Shown here piece by piece: positions 3,415-11,666 of a DNA stretch of 42,340 bases. Positions within the stretch are counted from its first letter, which is position 1; every line of letters begins with the position of its first letter. Origin of the DNA: Pseudanabaena biceps PCC 7429 (lineage in GTDB: Bacteria > Cyanobacteriota > Cyanobacteriia > Pseudanabaenales > Pseudanabaenaceae); contig NZ_ALWB01000013.1 of assembly GCF_000332215.1 (NCBI RefSeq), positions 1 to 42,340 on the forward strand. The letters run 5' to 3'. Made by a program: the position numbers and the translations under genes. The notes under the pieces are model-generated. The model was not told the DNA's origin. It did not search any database and saw only the letters and a list, made by a program, of their open reading frames with translations.

Positions 3415-4029
3415 CTACAAAAGGCTTTCTAATTCTGGTGTTGCGGATAATTCCACATCTTCATAAATCAGCGATAAGGGACATTGAAAGTCAATACTAG
3501 TTAACTCAAAAATGTCAGGATTAGCAGTTTCAGCAAGATCCTCTGGGTAGCTAGTTAATTCCCATTTGCCAGCATTTCCCCGCCGATAAACATCAATACT
3601 AATTTTCTCAGCATCAATCAGGACATACTCTAGCAAGGTGGGAAAACGGCGATAATATTTGAACTTATCACCACGATCAAAGCCTGCGGTACTTGGTGAT
3701 AAAACTTCTACAATTATTTTTGGAAAGAAGATTGCTTCACGCGATCGCCGATCTTGCTCATTACAACTCACCACTATATCTGGATAGAAATACGGACCAT
3801 TTTCTGAAATCTTGACCTTGGCATCAGACATTCTCACTTTGCAGCCTTTTTCGCGTAAGAATGGCTTCAAAATGGTCGTTAAGTTTACGGCGATATCATT
3901 ATGGGGTAAAGTTCCACCAGCCATTGCATAGACTTCACCATCGATGTATTCATAACGAACTTGCTGTTCTGCTTCCCATACAAGATATTCTTCAGGTGTG
4001 AAGAACTGCTTTTTAAGATTAGCAATCAT
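3415..4029 (-). CDS. Uma2 family (DUF820) PD-(D/E)XK endonuclease-like protein
   Basis: 204 residues from the ATG at 4029 (MIANLKKQFFTPEEYLVWEA). This start is preferred over longer readings because CAGGGA lies just upstream and the family normally begins with FTxEEYL. Typical family features follow: YEYIDGEVYAMAGGTLPHN, the catalytic-type strand YPDIVVSCN (Asp), and FFPKIIVEVLSPSTAGFDR (E-x-hydrophobic, then SPSTxxxDR), ending with YVLID. Uma2 proteins are very abundant in cyanobacterial genomes. They are restriction-endonuclease-fold proteins of uncertain role, suspected to be mobile-element related. No partner gene is visible. Confidence 0.9.
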   Translation of the reverse strand: MIANLKKQFFTPEEYLVWEAEQQVRYEYIDGEVYAMAGGTLPHNDIAVNLTTILKPFLREKGCKVRMSDAKVKISENGPYFYPDIVVSCNEQDRRSREAIFFPKIIVEVLSPSTAGFDRGDKFKYYRRFPTLLEYVLIDAEKISIDVYRRGNAGKWELTSYPEDLAETANPDIFELTSIDFQCPLSLIYEDVELSATPELESLL

Positions 4030-4106
4030 CAATTTTTCCCTGTAACCTTTACTTAAAATAGCACATTTACGATTTACGCAAAATGACTCGAAAATCATAT
4101 TCCGTA

Positions 4107-4134
4107 GTAAGGGCAATTCATGAATTGCCCTTAC
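4107..4134. repeat. Perfect 28-bp palindrome of the GGGCAATTCATG family
   Basis: GTAAGGGCAATTCA joins its own reverse complement without a loop. A close relative with GGAGC in place of GGGC lies at 23952-23981. Here it sits between the BASS transporter and the Uma2 gene, both on the minus strand. Confidence 0.8.
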
Positions 4135-5635: not shown

Positions 5636-8056
5636 TTACAATAAATCAAGTTTGACCTGCTCTAAATTGCCAGTGAATTTAAAGGGGACTTGATAGCTAT
5701 CAACCACAGCGCTACCTGTATCTTGACCAACATCAAAGGTTTCATCTAAGCCAATGCGGAAGCCGACGGTTTTCTCAATGCGACCTTCAGCAACCTGTTT
5801 ATCATTGATAAATAGCTTGCCAGTGCCACCTGCACCAAGCCCGCCGCCATCGTAGGCAAAGTCGAATCTAACTTTAGATTTGCCGATCGCTACGGGTTCA
5901 GCGGATTGAATAATCGTGCGATCGCTATTCAGGAAGTTATAGGCATAGGTAGGTTTGCCATCTTGCAGAAAGAAACTCCAACCCGCAAAACGTCCGCCTT
6001 GAGTCACTAATACTCCTTCTGCGCCAGCTTTAGCCACATCTAAATCCGCAGTAATACTGAAGGAACGATTTTTGGTGTTAGGAGCGCTCCCTTCAGGAAT
6101 GCCAACAACTGATGTGTAGTAACTAAAGCTATTGCGCCCATTTGTGATGCTGGGACGAGTATTAATATCAAAGCGCTGAATTGTGCGATCGTCTAAGGGC
6201 AGAACCTTATATTTCTTGGCTTCCTTCAGAAAGAGATTTTGCAATTCCGCCAACTTTTGAGGATTATCTTTAGCTAAATCCTGAGATTCGCTAAAGTCTT
6301 GGGCAACATTGTATAGCTCCCAATTATCCTGCTCGAAAGTAGTTTTAGAGAATCGCTCCCAAGGCAAACGACCATGACGCGCCGCGGCTACCCAGCCTTG
6401 ATCGTAAATAGCACGGTTTCCAAACATCTCAAAGTACTGGGTTTTATGTTTGGAAGCCACCGCAGAATCGTCAAAGGAATACACAAGACTGGTTCCCTCA
6501 ATCGGTTGCTGTTTTGCGCCATTAACTACTTCTGGCTCCGTAATGCCAGCCGCTTCCAGAATCGTTGGTGCAATATCAATCACATGATGGAACTGGCTGC
6601 GAATAGCACCTTTATCCTTAATGCGATCGCCCCAAGCGACAACTAGACCATTACGAGTACCGCCGAAGTGCGAAGCGATTTGCTTAGTCCATTGGAAAGG
6701 GCTATCCACTGCCCAAGCCCAAGCGGCATGGAAATGATTAAAAGTCTTGGGACTACCCAAATCACCTAGGGCGGCGAGAACTTCTTGAGGACTTTCTTCA
6801 ACACCATTAAAGACCTTGAACTCGTTAACACTACCTGTTAAACCACCTTCTGCACTCGCACCATTGTCGCCAGCTATAAAAAAGACTAGGGTATTATCCA
6901 ATTCACCTAGCTGATCGATCGCCTCAATCACGCGACCAACTTCGGCATCGGTATGGCTGAGGAAACCTGCAAATACTTCAAATTGGTGCGCGTAAACCTT
7001 CTGCTCCGTAGAGGAGAGGGAATCCCAAGCGGGAATTTCCGCAGGACGGGGCGTGAGTTTCGTATCCGCAGGAATGATGCCCAGTTTAAGCTGACGCTCA
7101 AAAATATCAGCGCGTAATTTATCCCAACCTTGATCGAACTTGCCTTTGTATTTCTCAATCCATTCCTTCGGTGCGTGGTGGGGCGCATGGGTTGCACCTG
7201 TGGCAAGGTAAGTAAAGAAGGGCTTATCAGGAGCGATCGATTGCTGGGTACGAATCCATTTAATCGCATGGTCAGCAAGATCGGGAGTGAGGTGATAATT
7301 GGGATCATCTAAAGGCTTCTGAATATGTTGCGTATTCTCCACCAAGTTAGGACTCCATTGATTGGTATCACCGCCCAGAAATCCATAGAAATAATCAAAT
7401 CCCAAACTAGTCGGCCAGCGATCAAAGGGTCCAACGGCACTAGTTTCGTAATCAGGAGTATTGTGCCATTTGCCAAAGGCGGCGGTATTATAGCCATTGC
7501 TGCGTAATACTTCGGCGATCGTGGCGGCACTGCGAGGAAGGATCGCAGTATACCCAGGGAAACCAGAGGCAAGTTCTGTAATCACACCTGTGCTGACAGA
7601 ATGGTGATTGCGTCCTGTCAGCAAGGCGGCTCTAGTGGGAGAGCAGAGCGCTGTAGTATGGAATTGGTTGTAACGTAATCCTCGCGCCGCTAAGCGATCT
7701 AAGTTTGGAGTTTCAATCAATCCACCGAAAGCACTAGTTTGTCCGAAACCTACGTCATCAAGAAGAACTAATAATACATTGGGAGCTTTGGCAGGGGCTT
7801 TAATAGGTTTAGGAAAGTCAGGTTGAGATTCCTTGTAAGTCGTGCCAATTTTGCCCTTGAAAGGTGGTTGGGGCAATGGCAAAACATCGCCATAGTCCGC
7901 TAAGGCAGGTAAAGGGAGGAGGCTGGAAAACATTAAGGCGATCGCAGTTAAAAAACTGATTTTTTGGGCGATCGCTTTTTTAGTTTCCCATTGCAAAATA
8001 AACTGAAGAGAGCTTTTCCAAAAATCTCTCTTTGAAGAATTTGTAACTTTTGTCAT
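5636..8056 (-). CDS. Exported arylsulfatase (formylglycine-type sulfatase)
   Basis: 806 residues from ATG 8056; a longer form would start at TTG 8107. An n-region with lysines is followed by a signal segment at about 33-53 ([19 protein letters not shown]), so export is likely. The sulfatase domain follows: metal ligands in [11 protein letters not shown], the modification site [12 protein letters not shown] at about 138-149 whose Cys becomes formylglycine, FGKWHN, and the second metal cluster [10 protein letters not shown]. It hydrolyses sulfate esters to give free sulfate. The last about 150 residues form an added beta-rich domain, as in large AtsA-like enzymes. No maturation enzyme is intact in the window; only a broken FGE-like end is found at 10367-10525. 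It heads the operon with the CMD and BASS genes. Confidence 0.92.
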
Positions 8057-8117
8057 TATTGTCTCAAACAAAGACCGATAGTTACTGTTATCACGAGGCT
8101 TTAGCAAAAGTCGGTCG

Positions 8118-8231
8118 TCAAGAAGACATCATCTGATCTGGGTTAAGTTGCGATCGCTGGGTTGCTCCTACCGCGATCTCTAGTCTTTGATACAATCCTT
8201 CTGGCATTTGCAAAACAACTGTTTCAGCCAT
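8118..8231 (-). pseudogene. Short remnant of a cyanobacterial VTLQLP-type small protein
   Basis: ATG at 8231 encodes MAETVVLQMPEGLYQRLEIA then VGATQRS and a stop after 37 residues. The opening (E-T-V-x-L-Q-x-P-x-x-L-Y-x-R-L) is that of small cyanobacterial DNA-binding or antitoxin-like proteins, which are usually longer than 60 residues. The body seems to be lost here. It lies in front of the arylsulfatase on the same strand. Functional status is unknown; decay is the simplest reading. Confidence 0.45.
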
Positions 8232-8305
8232 ATTTTCTGAATAGTTTATGCCTCCAAAAGAGGGCAAGTGCAAACAACTACAAAAAAACTTTGAGAATAA
8301 TTGAT

Positions 8306-10135
8306 TTACATATTAGGAATAAATAAGATTTCTTGTGGACTAATTTCAAGGTTGTCAGACTCTAGTGCACTTTGTATTGAAGTTTGAAGACTTGGATATA
8401 ATGATGCATCTTCATATGCAGCATTTAGCCACTTTTTTCGTTCTTCATCTGCTCCTTCGTTTTGGAATAGTCTAGCAATTTCAAGCATACATGCTATTTC
8501 TATACGAATTGGGATAAAAAATTTGGTTGTCTTGAAGTGTTGTTCAACAAGGGCTTCAGCTTGTTTTCCTTTCCAATCCTGTGTCTTGTCATGAATAACA
8601 TCCACAACGAAACGCTGAAGTCCTTGCATTCTATCTCCAAAAGTGCTTTTCTTTAAAATAGTATCCCAAACTTCTTCGTCACTATTTATCATTTCGAGAT
8701 GAGTACAAAGTAGAGTAATGGCTTGAAGATATTCCTTTTCAGATTTCTTAGAGCTACTAATTAGACTTAGAGCTTGTTCTTTAAGAGCTTTCCAGTCATA
8801 AGATGGATTGGGATCAAAGCGAAAGACTGCCCTACCTGCCATAGAACCTGAGGTTGCTATACCCATAATCAAATCTAAGTCTGTTTGATTTTTTGATATC
8901 TGTTCATGAAGTTTTTCAATGTAGTTATCTTGGTAAATAACAAGGATGTCTTCAAACCAGTTTTGTGCATACTGAGATGTAATACTAAAAAGATTGCCAT
9001 CAGAACTTTTCATGCGGAGGTAGGCTGGATTACGATTTAATCTGATTATGCTATCATCTGATTCCTCTATCCAAGGATGAGAACGAAGATCGATGGCTTC
9101 TTGTTTCTCAATAAACTCTAGTATAATAGAACGGACTACTCGAAATAACCCTCTTAAAGTTAAATATGATGTTTTAACCTTTTCATCCTTTATGTCAATC
9201 GATTCAACCTCTTCAGATCGCTCCGATTCATCGATCAGGAATTGGGGGAGTAGTTTTAAGGCATGAGAAAACGAAGATCTTAAATCATAAGCATTTTCAA
9301 TGTTTTTGCGAATTCGTGAACGTCGTAATTGTGATTTTGAATTACTATTTGATGCTTTGTACAGATCTGGGGGAATATGATCGAGTGCAAAATCAGTAAA
9401 TCTTTTTGTAGCCTTTGGCTGTACGATATCCACCAAAACTCTGCGTAGATCATCAGCCCAAGTCTCATCGAGTGGAGAAATACGTTCATCTTGTAAAAGA
9501 TTATCAATCTTATCTCTTGATGCATTAGACACATTATCCCAAGTAGCTTGATAAGCTGGATGACCATTTGCTAATGCTTCAAGTGCAAACACAAGTAATG
9601 AGTATGAAAGTGTAGGATCACTGGAGAGAACATGAAGAGCACGTTCATATGCAGTAAGAGCTTGACAGATTGCAAGGTATTGTTTTCGAGGTATTGATAA
9701 AGTTTTCTGAAGCCAAGAATTAAGTGCTTCTATCTCTTCATGTCGTAAATTTGATGTATCCCTGAACATATCAGGTAAGATTCTCTTTCCTGCCGAGTGT
9801 TTTTTATTACAGTGTTGGTCAACTTCTTCTGGGGACTGAGCAAAAAACAAATTCATTCGTAGGATCAAGAGGAGCCTAATTTGCTTACATATTGCATCTA
9901 CAGGTGTTGGAGATGAACCAGCGCCAACAAAAATCGAGTAATTATTAATGGCTAATGTCCAAGCATAAGTATTAGAGATTATCCCTCCACCAACAATAAG
10001 AAAAGCTGGACTCAAGAATGTCAGATGTGGAAATTCATGGTTACAAAAAATAGTCCTAAACTCTTGAGTATCTTGGATATTCTCACTTTGAATCTCACTT
10101 TGAATATATTTTAACCAATAGATCTTTTGTAGCAC
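8306..10135 (-). CDS. Large hypothetical protein with Apea-like HEPN features
   Basis: 609 residues from a GTG at 10135; the first ATG inside would remove 93 residues, so the true start is uncertain. The central part resembles Apea-type HEPN domains: the helix SYSLLVFALEALANGHPA at about 182-199 and AYDLRSSFSHALKL at about 283-296 with an R-x4-H pair. In HEPN proteins such a pair can form an RNase site. The C-terminal half is helical without recognised motifs. No HIP1 octamer is seen in its 1.8 kb, whereas flanking genes have several, and the gene is AT-rich, so recent transfer is likely. A defence or RNA-directed role is possible but unproven. Confidence 0.6.
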   Translation of the reverse strand: MLQKIYWLKYIQSEIQSENIQDTQEFRTIFCNHEFPHLTFLSPAFLIVGGGIISNTYAWTLAINNYSIFVGAGSSPTPVDAICKQIRLLLILRMNLFFAQSPEEVDQHCNKKHSAGKRILPDMFRDTSNLRHEEIEALNSWLQKTLSIPRKQYLAICQALTAYERALHVLSSDPTLSYSLLVFALEALANGHPAYQATWDNVSNASRDKIDNLLQDERISPLDETWADDLRRVLVDIVQPKATKRFTDFALDHIPPDLYKASNSNSKSQLRRSRIRKNIENAYDLRSSFSHALKLLPQFLIDESERSEEVESIDIKDEKVKTSYLTLRGLFRVVRSIILEFIEKQEAIDLRSHPWIEESDDSIIRLNRNPAYLRMKSSDGNLFSITSQYAQNWFEDILVIYQDNYIEKLHEQISKNQTDLDLIMGIATSGSMAGRAVFRFDPNPSYDWKALKEQALSLISSSKKSEKEYLQAITLLCTHLEMINSDEEVWDTILKKSTFGDRMQGLQRFVVDVIHDKTQDWKGKQAEALVEQHFKTTKFFIPIRIEIACMLEIARLFQNEGADEERKKWLNAAYEDASLYPSLQTSIQSALESDNLEISPQEILFIPNM

Positions 10136-10366
10136 TAGTAACTATATCCAATTACAAAAAAATTAACTAGCTAAAAAATATTTTAACAATTTAATTATTC
10201 TAACTCAGCTATCTAGCTTGTGATGGCATAGTAAACATCTTACTATCGGTGACAAAGCGATCGCGCTTGATGATGACAAAAGGCGATCACCTATTTCTTC
10301 CTTACTCAACTTTTGATGTTTGAGGCGATTATTTTTGTCTACAAGGCTCTGCTAGCGATCGCAATA

Positions 10367-10525
10367 TTATTCAGTAGCAAGAACCAAGCGAAATCCAATA
10401 TGAGTAGTTCCTGTATCAGGAGACTCCGACTCACGCGCCGCAAGACGATAGCGACTAAAGTAATTGAGAGTGTAGAGATAGGAGCCTCAAAAACTAGCAG
10501 CGCGATCGCGAAAAGGCAGACAAGT
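10367..10525 (-). pseudogene. C-terminal remnant of a formylglycine-generating-enzyme-like (SUMF1-type) gene
   Basis: Minus-strand codons read LPFRDRAASF, a TGA at 10487-10489, then GSYLYTLNYFSRYRLAAR, ESPDTGTTHIGFRLVLATE and a TAA at 10367. This is the C-terminal signature of SUMF1/FGE proteins (GGSY....YRYR.AAR....PD....N.GFR). The TGA stands where an Arg is expected before GGS. The two catalytic cysteines of true FGE fall at Y and F in this sequence. Everything upstream of about 10525 is replaced by a heptamer repeat array. It is therefore a dead end-piece, probably of an FGE-like paralogue. Its position close to an arylsulfatase is notable. Confidence 0.7.
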
Positions 10526-10541
10526 AAAAACCTATTTTGCA

Positions 10542-10650
10542 TCACCAATCACCAATCACCAATCACCAATCACCAATCACCAATCACCAATCACCAATCA
10601 CCAATCACCAATCACCAATCACCAATCACCAATCACCAATCACCAATCAC
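10542..10650. repeat. Tandem heptamer array (CACCAAT)n, about 15 units
   Basis: The 7-bp unit CACCAAT is repeated without visible interruption for about 109 bp, resembling the short tandemly repeated repetitive (STRR) sequences of cyanobacteria. It lies directly upstream of the FGE-like remnant and downstream of the SDR gene. It is open in more than one frame only because of the unit length and composition, so I do not call a gene from it. Confidence 0.95.
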
Positions 10651-10651
10651 C

Positions 10652-10682: not shown

Positions 10683-11432
10683 TTACCAATACTGCGTCGT
10701 CGGACGAATCAAAATCTCATTCACATCCACACGTTCTGGTTGACTGACAGCATAGGCGATCGCATTGGCAATATCTTCTGCTTCTAGAGGCGTAATTGAT
10801 TTGCGAAGTGCTTGACTCTTTTCGTAGGCAACGGGATCGGAAATATGCTGATCGATTTCTGTATTCACCATTCCGGGTTCCACAACCGTGACGCGAATAT
10901 TTTGTGGTGTCACTTCCAATCGCAATGCTTCAGAAAAGGCATTCACACCCCATTTCGTTAAGTTATAAAGCCCAATTCCTGCGCGGACAGTTCGACCAGC
11001 TACGGAGGAGACATTGACAATATGTCCAGACTTCTGTTCTAAAAGCGTTGGCAAGACTGCGTGAGTGGCATATAAAACCCCAAAGATATTCACATCAATC
11101 ATTTTGCGCCAATCATCGGTATTCGCATTAGCGATTTGTCCTGCGATCGCAATCCCTGCATTGTTTACCAGAATATCAATCCGCCCAAAGGTTTCTTTGG
11201 TCTTAGCAATTAAGTTCTGTACTTGCGCCTCATCGGTGATATCGGTAATTACTTGGAGAACTTTACCGCCCGATGCTTCAATTTTTTGAGCAACTTCATT
11301 GAGCTTATCGGCGCGTCTAGCAGCGATCACTACATATGCACCCTCCGCAGCCAAGGCGATCGCCGTAGCCGCACCAATACCTGCGGAAGCACCTGTGATA
11401 ATTGCAACTTTACCTGCTAATTTTTTGGTCAT
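10683..11432 (-). CDS. Classical short-chain dehydrogenase/reductase (SDR)
   Basis: 249 residues, the usual length. It is an NAD(P)(H)-dependent alcohol/ketone oxidoreductase of the cytoplasm. The cofactor motif TGASAGIG is at about 14-21, followed by AARR (basic residues favouring NADP), the NNAG motif at about 90-93, catalytic Ser in VSSVAG, and YNLTK as the YxxxK pair. PGMVNTEI follows as expected. Unlike the second SDR at 30078, all catalytic residues are present. The gene is divergent from the ferredoxin operon and has the regulon palindrome 21 bp upstream of its start codon. TATAAG at 11450-11445 on the minus strand could be a -10 box but would give a nearly leaderless mRNA. The substrate is unknown; a carbonyl from organosulfur breakdown is inference. 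Confidence 0.92.
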   Translation of the reverse strand: MTKKLAGKVAIITGASAGIGAATAIALAAEGAYVVIAARRADKLNEVAQKIEASGGKVLQVITDITDEAQVQNLIAKTKETFGRIDILVNNAGIAIAGQIANANTDDWRKMIDVNIFGVLYATHAVLPTLLEQKSGHIVNVSSVAGRTVRAGIGLYNLTKWGVNAFSEALRLEVTPQNIRVTVVEPGMVNTEIDQHISDPVAYEKSQALRKSITPLEAEDIANAIAYAVSQPERVDVNEILIRPTTQYW

Positions 11433-11452: not shown

Positions 11453-11480
11453 TTACGGTATCTACATATTAATGCCGTAG
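11453..11480. promoter_or_regulatory. Regulon palindrome site a (TTACGG-N16-CCGTAG)
   Basis: Half-sites TTACGGTA (11453-11460) and TGCCGTAG (11473-11480) are inverted, and the outer ends are 28 bp apart, as in sites c, d, f and g. It lies between the divergent SDR and ferredoxin genes. Spacing to a -10 box is not as clear here as at the other sites. Confidence 0.7.
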
Positions 11481-11666
11481 TATTTGGGATTTAGTATGTC
11501 ACTAGGGGTGACAAAGAGCAATCAACAAACAATCAAAAAACAATCAAAAAACAATAAAAGTTTAGACAGCAGAATATTTAGTTAAACTAATAATTAGATT
11601 TTCAGAAAATTGTAGTCTGGACGACATTTGTTTTGAATAGGGCTGTGGCAGACTGATACAAATAAT

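Follow-up and report, generated by a model that had tools for sequence, protein, structure and literature searches.

The window considered here, the whole stretch of 42,340 nucleotides of Pseudanabaena biceps PCC 7429 (NZ_ALWB01000013.1), belongs to a draft genome of 5.47 Mb in 464 contigs, which we call G000 and in which the window is contig C13. Between an SDR oxidoreductase gene and an arylsulfatase gene it holds two remnants of an FGE gene, a gene for a sulfatase maturase, and the features of this region are as follows.

10683-11432, minus strand: SDR oxidoreductase gene, the upstream neighbour of FGE in relatives
10541-10651, between the SDR gene and the 5' remnant: heptamer array of 15.9 copies, an ancestral intergenic repeat upstream of FGE
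10488-10539, minus strand: 5' remnant of FGE, encoding the signal peptide QNRFLLVCLFAIA in a frame that differs from that of the 3' remnant (from blastn and frame)
10487, minus strand: deletion joint, at which 794 bp of the G005/G006 gene are gone and one base is unaligned (from blastn)
10367-10486, minus strand: 3' remnant of FGE, its last 39 codons and stop (from DNA identity to G005/G006 and translation)
10339-10542, minus strand: open reading frame of 67 codons from an ATG start, made by the deletion; the signal peptide is followed by the 3' part of FGE out of frame
10255-10362, minus strand: repeat of ~108 bp found across the genus, with GCGATCGC (HIP1) at both ends, empty here
8306-10135, minus strand: open reading frame of 609 amino acids between the relic and the sulfatase, with no family over cut-off
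5636-8107, minus strand: arylsulfatase of 823 amino acids, Cys-type

Two remnants of an FGE gene

The relic was identified through its DNA. Window positions 10284-10486 are 86% identical, along 203 bp, to the FGE genes that remain intact in G005 and G006 (E ~1e-62), and a DNA search matched the 5' ends of the intact genes of G005, G006 and G025 to 10488-10539, the match extending over query positions 11-53 for G006 and G005 and 11-67 for G025. Positions 706 and 1501 of the G005 and G006 loci (L012 and L013) are separated here by a single extra base, and the TGA at 10487-10489 spans this joint. As protein, the 3' piece of 38 amino acids covers positions 220-254 (also given as 226-254) of the 255 in the Pfam FGE-sulfatase profile at E=0.0076 and 16.8 bits, a weak match below the curated cut-off of 23.3; hence the family assignment was based on the DNA match instead. 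Both ends of the relic find homologous sequence, in the same order, in an intact gene at the syntenic position, which defines the relic as a pseudogene, and it lacks the full-length FGE-sulfatase domain of a functional FGE. The relic is too short for a tree, and its orthology was established from synteny and from the common C-terminus LVLATE; over 105 nt it is 89% identical to G005/G006, 89% to G023 and 88% to G025, values that do not separate these relatives.

A preliminary description, made from the letters of the window, had read GSYLYTLNYFSRYRLAARESESPDTGTTHIGFRLVLATE and a stop on the minus strand with a TGA directly preceding, and this reading of the codons was correct. It had recognized a defunct FGE gene close to an arylsulfatase of the Cys type, which the remnants, the joint and the synteny bear out, and the SUMF1/FGE similarity that it expected around 10340-10540 was found, weak as protein and strong as DNA. 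It was mistaken in holding that there was no upstream part, since 10488-10539 is the signal-peptide 5' end, with QNRFLLVCLFAIA in the next frame.

Decay of the remaining codons

The motif GSYLCA(P/A)NYCSRYR, with both catalytic cysteines, was read in all eight intact copies, which comprise six genes next to an SDR gene or the tail of one, the FGE gene on contig C281 of G000, and G007:C219. Tyr and Phe replace the two cysteines in the relic, which thus lacks the cysteine pair of a functional FGE. The preliminary description had noted these residues, and they are indeed there; as an original state they do not stand, because retention of both cysteines in 8/8 intact copies marks Tyr and Phe as mutations of the relic. 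An ancestral FGE without the cysteines is ruled out on the same count.

Over the 35 codons common to all copies, the private changes of the relic are five nonsynonymous and one synonymous, compared with two nonsynonymous and 25 synonymous variants among the intact copies (Fisher p=0.0005 against the 5:1 of the relic); over 38 codons the relic has five nonsynonymous and two synonymous private changes. Two of the five nonsynonymous changes fall on the catalytic cysteines. In five pairs of intact copies dN/dS is 0.09-0.16. The intact FGE genes are under purifying selection, and the substitution pattern of the relic is relaxed.

Gene order in related genomes

A close SDR gene (E <= 1e-90) is present in 6/26 Pseudanabaena genomes, and the gene that follows it is a full-length FGE in five of these (G003, G005, G006, G017 and G025) and the relic in G000. 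The sulfatase comes directly after FGE in G017, with at least two other genes in between in G003, G005 and G006, and on another contig in G025, such that it shares the contig of SDR and FGE in four of the five intact genomes. The flanks of the window (a ferredoxin-like gene and the next ORF; CMD, an SBF transporter and a methyltransferase) match the same relatives.

Two further observations concern the surroundings of the sulfatase gene. A Uma2-type gene (3415-4116, minus strand) has no DNA match in the related loci that were fetched and was possibly inserted. On the minus strand, window positions 8150-8236 match the beginning of a small gene that in G005 and G019 neighbours an HNH-like gene.

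Maturation of the sulfatases

The sulfatase at 5636-8107 matches PF00884 at 222.4 bits and carries the C/S-x-P-x-R motif, as is characteristic of type I (formylglycine) sulfatases; it is one of three PF00884 sulfatases in G000, all with CSPTR, the other two lying on contigs C24 and C184. Among the seven SUMF1-domain proteins of this genome, both cysteines occur only in the product of C281:196-1197 (334 aa, on a contig of 5.85 kb). This protein has the full-length domain of a functional FGE (profile positions 3-255 of 255, 266.8 bits) and matches FGEs of solved structure from bacteria and human at E ~1e-71, with both cysteines aligned. The six other SUMF1-domain proteins were rejected as maturases, the first cysteine of the motif being missing by eye. 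A radical-SAM sulfatase maturase (anSME, TIGR03942) was sought in G000 and likewise set aside, the best match scoring 27.5 bits where the cut-off is 349.45.

We infer that the three Cys-type sulfatases, that at 5636-8107 among them, would all be matured by the C281 FGE. The preliminary description had argued that maturation must come from elsewhere, through an intact FGE or an anSME in the genome; the former exists on contig C281, with both cysteines, and hence there is no maturation puzzle. Across the genus, PF00884 sulfatases occur in 8/26 genomes, all of them within the 10/26 that have such an FGE (Fisher p=2.9e-5, kinship ignored), and FGE-like genes without a PF00884 match are found in G001 and G023. 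Surveys of FGE and sulfatase genes in cyanobacterial mats are in print (PMC9723792), and a search of the literature on FGE in cyanobacteria and on FGE pseudogenes returned nothing about this locus.

The C281 FGE (196-1197) and the sulfatase at 5636-8107 both begin, by eye, with hydrophobic signal-like stretches, and maturation may therefore occur outside the cytoplasm. Ahead of the intact FGE on C281, positions 70-144 are 77% identical, along 76 bp, to the stretch on the promoter side of the window's SDR gene (~11454-11529), a resemblance that would fit the loss of an SDR gene from beside the C281 FGE.

Origin of the locus and loss of the gene

The relic is very probably a syntenic FGE pseudogene, left in a locus of the form SDR - FGE - (...) - sulfatase (locus A) that was probably gained laterally, and reduced by a deletion of ~794 bp and by point mutations. 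Locus A originally had this order with an intact FGE; through the deletion the codons of the signal peptide were fused to the final 39 codons in a different frame, and substitutions altered both catalytic cysteines, among others, with either event perhaps the first. The FGE of this locus may have been dispensable because G000 already had another, on C281.

As to where the locus came from, the sister of G000 by rpoB is G007, with 96.5% identity against 88.1% for the next best (25/26 genomes, G021 having no rpoB). These two genomes have in common the C281-type FGE, 92% identical over 1375 bp and grouped with tree support of 100/100, and a sulfatase whose gene is flanked alike in both (C184 in G000, C28 in G007). 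The SDR/ferredoxin stretch of the window is absent from G007, where one 26-bp match was all that was found. The sulfatase of the window is 91-93% identical to that of G025 and ~91% to that of G017, and only 77-85% to those of G005/G006. Lateral gain of a second SDR-FGE-sulfatase locus, from another Pseudanabaena lineage, followed by loss of the spare FGE and retention of the sulfatase, is most likely the history of this locus. That locus A is instead old in the lineage of G000 and was lost in G007 is unlikely. G000 and G007 are a single pair and gene loss is common, both of which favour such a loss; however, most genes of locus A share 90-95% identity with G025/G005/G006, whereas rpoB of G000 is 85-87% identical to that of the same genomes, this one core gene serving as the yardstick for lateral transfer.

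Three other accounts of the joint can be given very little weight. An artefact of assembly or sequencing, with the true FGE gene intact, has in its favour the draft state of the genome, whose 464 contigs leave room for a false joint, and the repeats on both sides of the relic; it is nevertheless highly improbable, because the part that remains carries five amino-acid-changing substitutions, both catalytic cysteines included, and misassembly makes no point mutations. The lost middle, moreover, was found nowhere else in the G000 contigs, except as the distinct C281 gene. Recombination within the heptamer array, to which the preliminary description had attributed the loss, can hardly have removed the gene. 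The array does abut the 5' remnant, so its position at the end of homology was well observed, but the joint at 10487 lies within the gene, ~54 bp away, with the 5' remnant in between. Shorter arrays of the same heptamer stand at the same place in G005 and G006, upstream of an intact FGE, and the array is thus neither a mark of loss nor the breakpoint. Finally, it is scarcely credible that the joined ends yield a small secreted peptide, newly formed and functional in its own right: the signal-peptide codons are in frame with an ATG, but the FGE part is out of frame, the joint occurs in 1/6 genomes with this SDR locus and there is no hint of selection, and the 67-codon reading frame is probably meaningless.

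As a syntenic pseudogene, the relic is an ordinary dead gene and a new example of gene decay. It offers a clean, small case of the loss of a maturase gene where another genomic copy can serve the same sulfatases, and a warning against inferring that a maturation system is missing from one broken neighbour.

A repeat of the genus beside the relic

The ~108-bp repeat begins 4 bp past the stop codon of the relic, immediately on its 3' side. A composite copy was found (E <= 1e-8) in 24/388 genomes of the class, namely 23/26 Pseudanabaena genomes and one genome of the same family. Our survey covered 54 loci with 87 sites, drawn from this search and from the DNA search that identified the relic, of which three 22-bp matches (G001, G015 and G020) were left out. 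Orthologous loci of different species were counted separately, and because a part of the candidates in each genome was scored, the numbers of copies are minimum values. Of the loci, 14 were picked mostly for visible repeat pairs and the remainder were added regardless of content. Folding as single-strand DNA gave z-scores of -2.35 to -3.03 in four copies, which are only modest, and strong folding of the repeat was discounted.

Where two repeats follow each other within 1.5 kb, their orientation agrees in 31/31 cases. An ORF from a cluster classed as toxin-antitoxin lies in 24/30 gaps of 300-1500 bp between repeats, where the class was set after the clusters had been seen, by Pfam on representatives and, for some partner clusters that Pfam did not match, solely by position beside a toxin. 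Such an ORF is present within 700 bp in 29/54 loci, leaving 25, the window included, without. Among small ORFs of 50-160 aa, Pfam returned at least 57 toxin-antitoxin-type matches in 129 of the 231 ORFs close to repeats (with some members possibly counted twice), compared with at least two, both DUF433, in 36 of the 79 control ORFs from 20 stretches of the same genomes, as counted over the families listed (25 of 29 and 25 of 32, respectively). One locus of G019 (L079, G019:C88:18000-24500) is an array in which six repeat sites enclose five gene pairs, namely a MazF-type pair, RelB/ParE, an HNH gene and its partner, an MNT/HEPN-like pair, and YefM/YoeB.

Several comparisons bear on exchange at the repeat. 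The YefM/YoeB units of G000 and G015 occupy different sites and, within the bounding repeats, share 94% identity along 762 bp. At the parB site, G007 (L225, C479) has a DUF433/DUF5615 pair between two repeats and G005, G001 and G004 have one repeat, a difference amounting to a single ~776-bp cassette; the pair is present in G007:C479 and G009:C176 (L087) and absent from G005:C91 (L224), G001:C2 (L216) and G004:C3 (L222). Behind FGE, a RelB-like/ParE pair lies between the halves of the repeat in G005/G006, and in the window these halves are joined directly. From 10288 down to 8180, a stretch that includes the 609-aa reading frame, the window is 95-96% identical to G019:C85, and this similarity starts exactly at the second half of the repeat, making the repeat a junction between two ancestries. 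In G019:C85 the stretch with the 609-aa reading frame likewise follows a repeat; ~117 bp are missing in the window. PADLOC and NCBIfam gave no family for this reading frame, and Pfam a weak sub-cut-off match to DUF1368.

We tentatively suggest, as a reading that falls somewhat short of probable, that the repeat beside the relic is the empty unit of a Pseudanabaena-wide cassette system, non-attC by its consensus, that trades toxin-antitoxin pairs, and at the same time the junction where a 2.1-kb unit with the 609-aa reading frame entered between FGE and sulfatase. The pairs traded might include YefM/YoeB, RelB/ParE, MazF-type, PIN, DUF433/DUF5615, MNT/HEPN and BrnT, through recombination at repeats with GCGATCGC ends. 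Ordinary homologous recombination would suffice for loss and for exchange; reaching new sites would require more. If such a system exists, the repeat would show how toxin-antitoxin pairs disperse and accumulate in a genus that is free-living, and natural filled and empty alleles are at hand for testing. A literature search on cyanobacterial or mobile toxin-antitoxin cassettes between repeats, mostly in non-subscription sources, gave no account of this Pseudanabaena repeat family. We judge the repeat more interesting than the relic and worth a separate study.

Comparison with known systems

Compared with the SUMF1/FGE family (PF03781), to whose C-terminal core the 3' remnant corresponds, the relic has a gap of ~794 bp, a frameshift, and Tyr and Phe at the cysteine sites; the syntenic genes that are intact and the C281 gene are full-length FGEs with both catalytic cysteines. 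SUMF2 (pFGE) is a full-length FGE paralogue without the cysteine pair. The relic likewise has no cysteine at the two sites; unlike SUMF2 it is not full-length, and its cysteine loss is counted as part of decay because all eight intact relatives keep both residues.

The repeat recalls the attC arrays of integrons, in which direct repeats of ~100 bp lie between small gene cassettes, since it too forms direct repeats of ~100 bp around small cassettes. The consensus ends RYYYAAC...GTTRRRY, however, were found in order in 0/36 Pseudanabaena copies, and identity with integron attC was rejected. A cyanobacterial parallel is MaOC1 of Microcystis, a toxin-antitoxin pair flanked on either side by identical direct repeats of 152 bp (PMC7935541), which resembles the Pseudanabaena arrangement as a type II pair between direct repeats. 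MaOC1 is a single locus with another repeat length, whereas the Pseudanabaena repeat extends over 54 loci, with several toxin-antitoxin families and both filled and empty sites.
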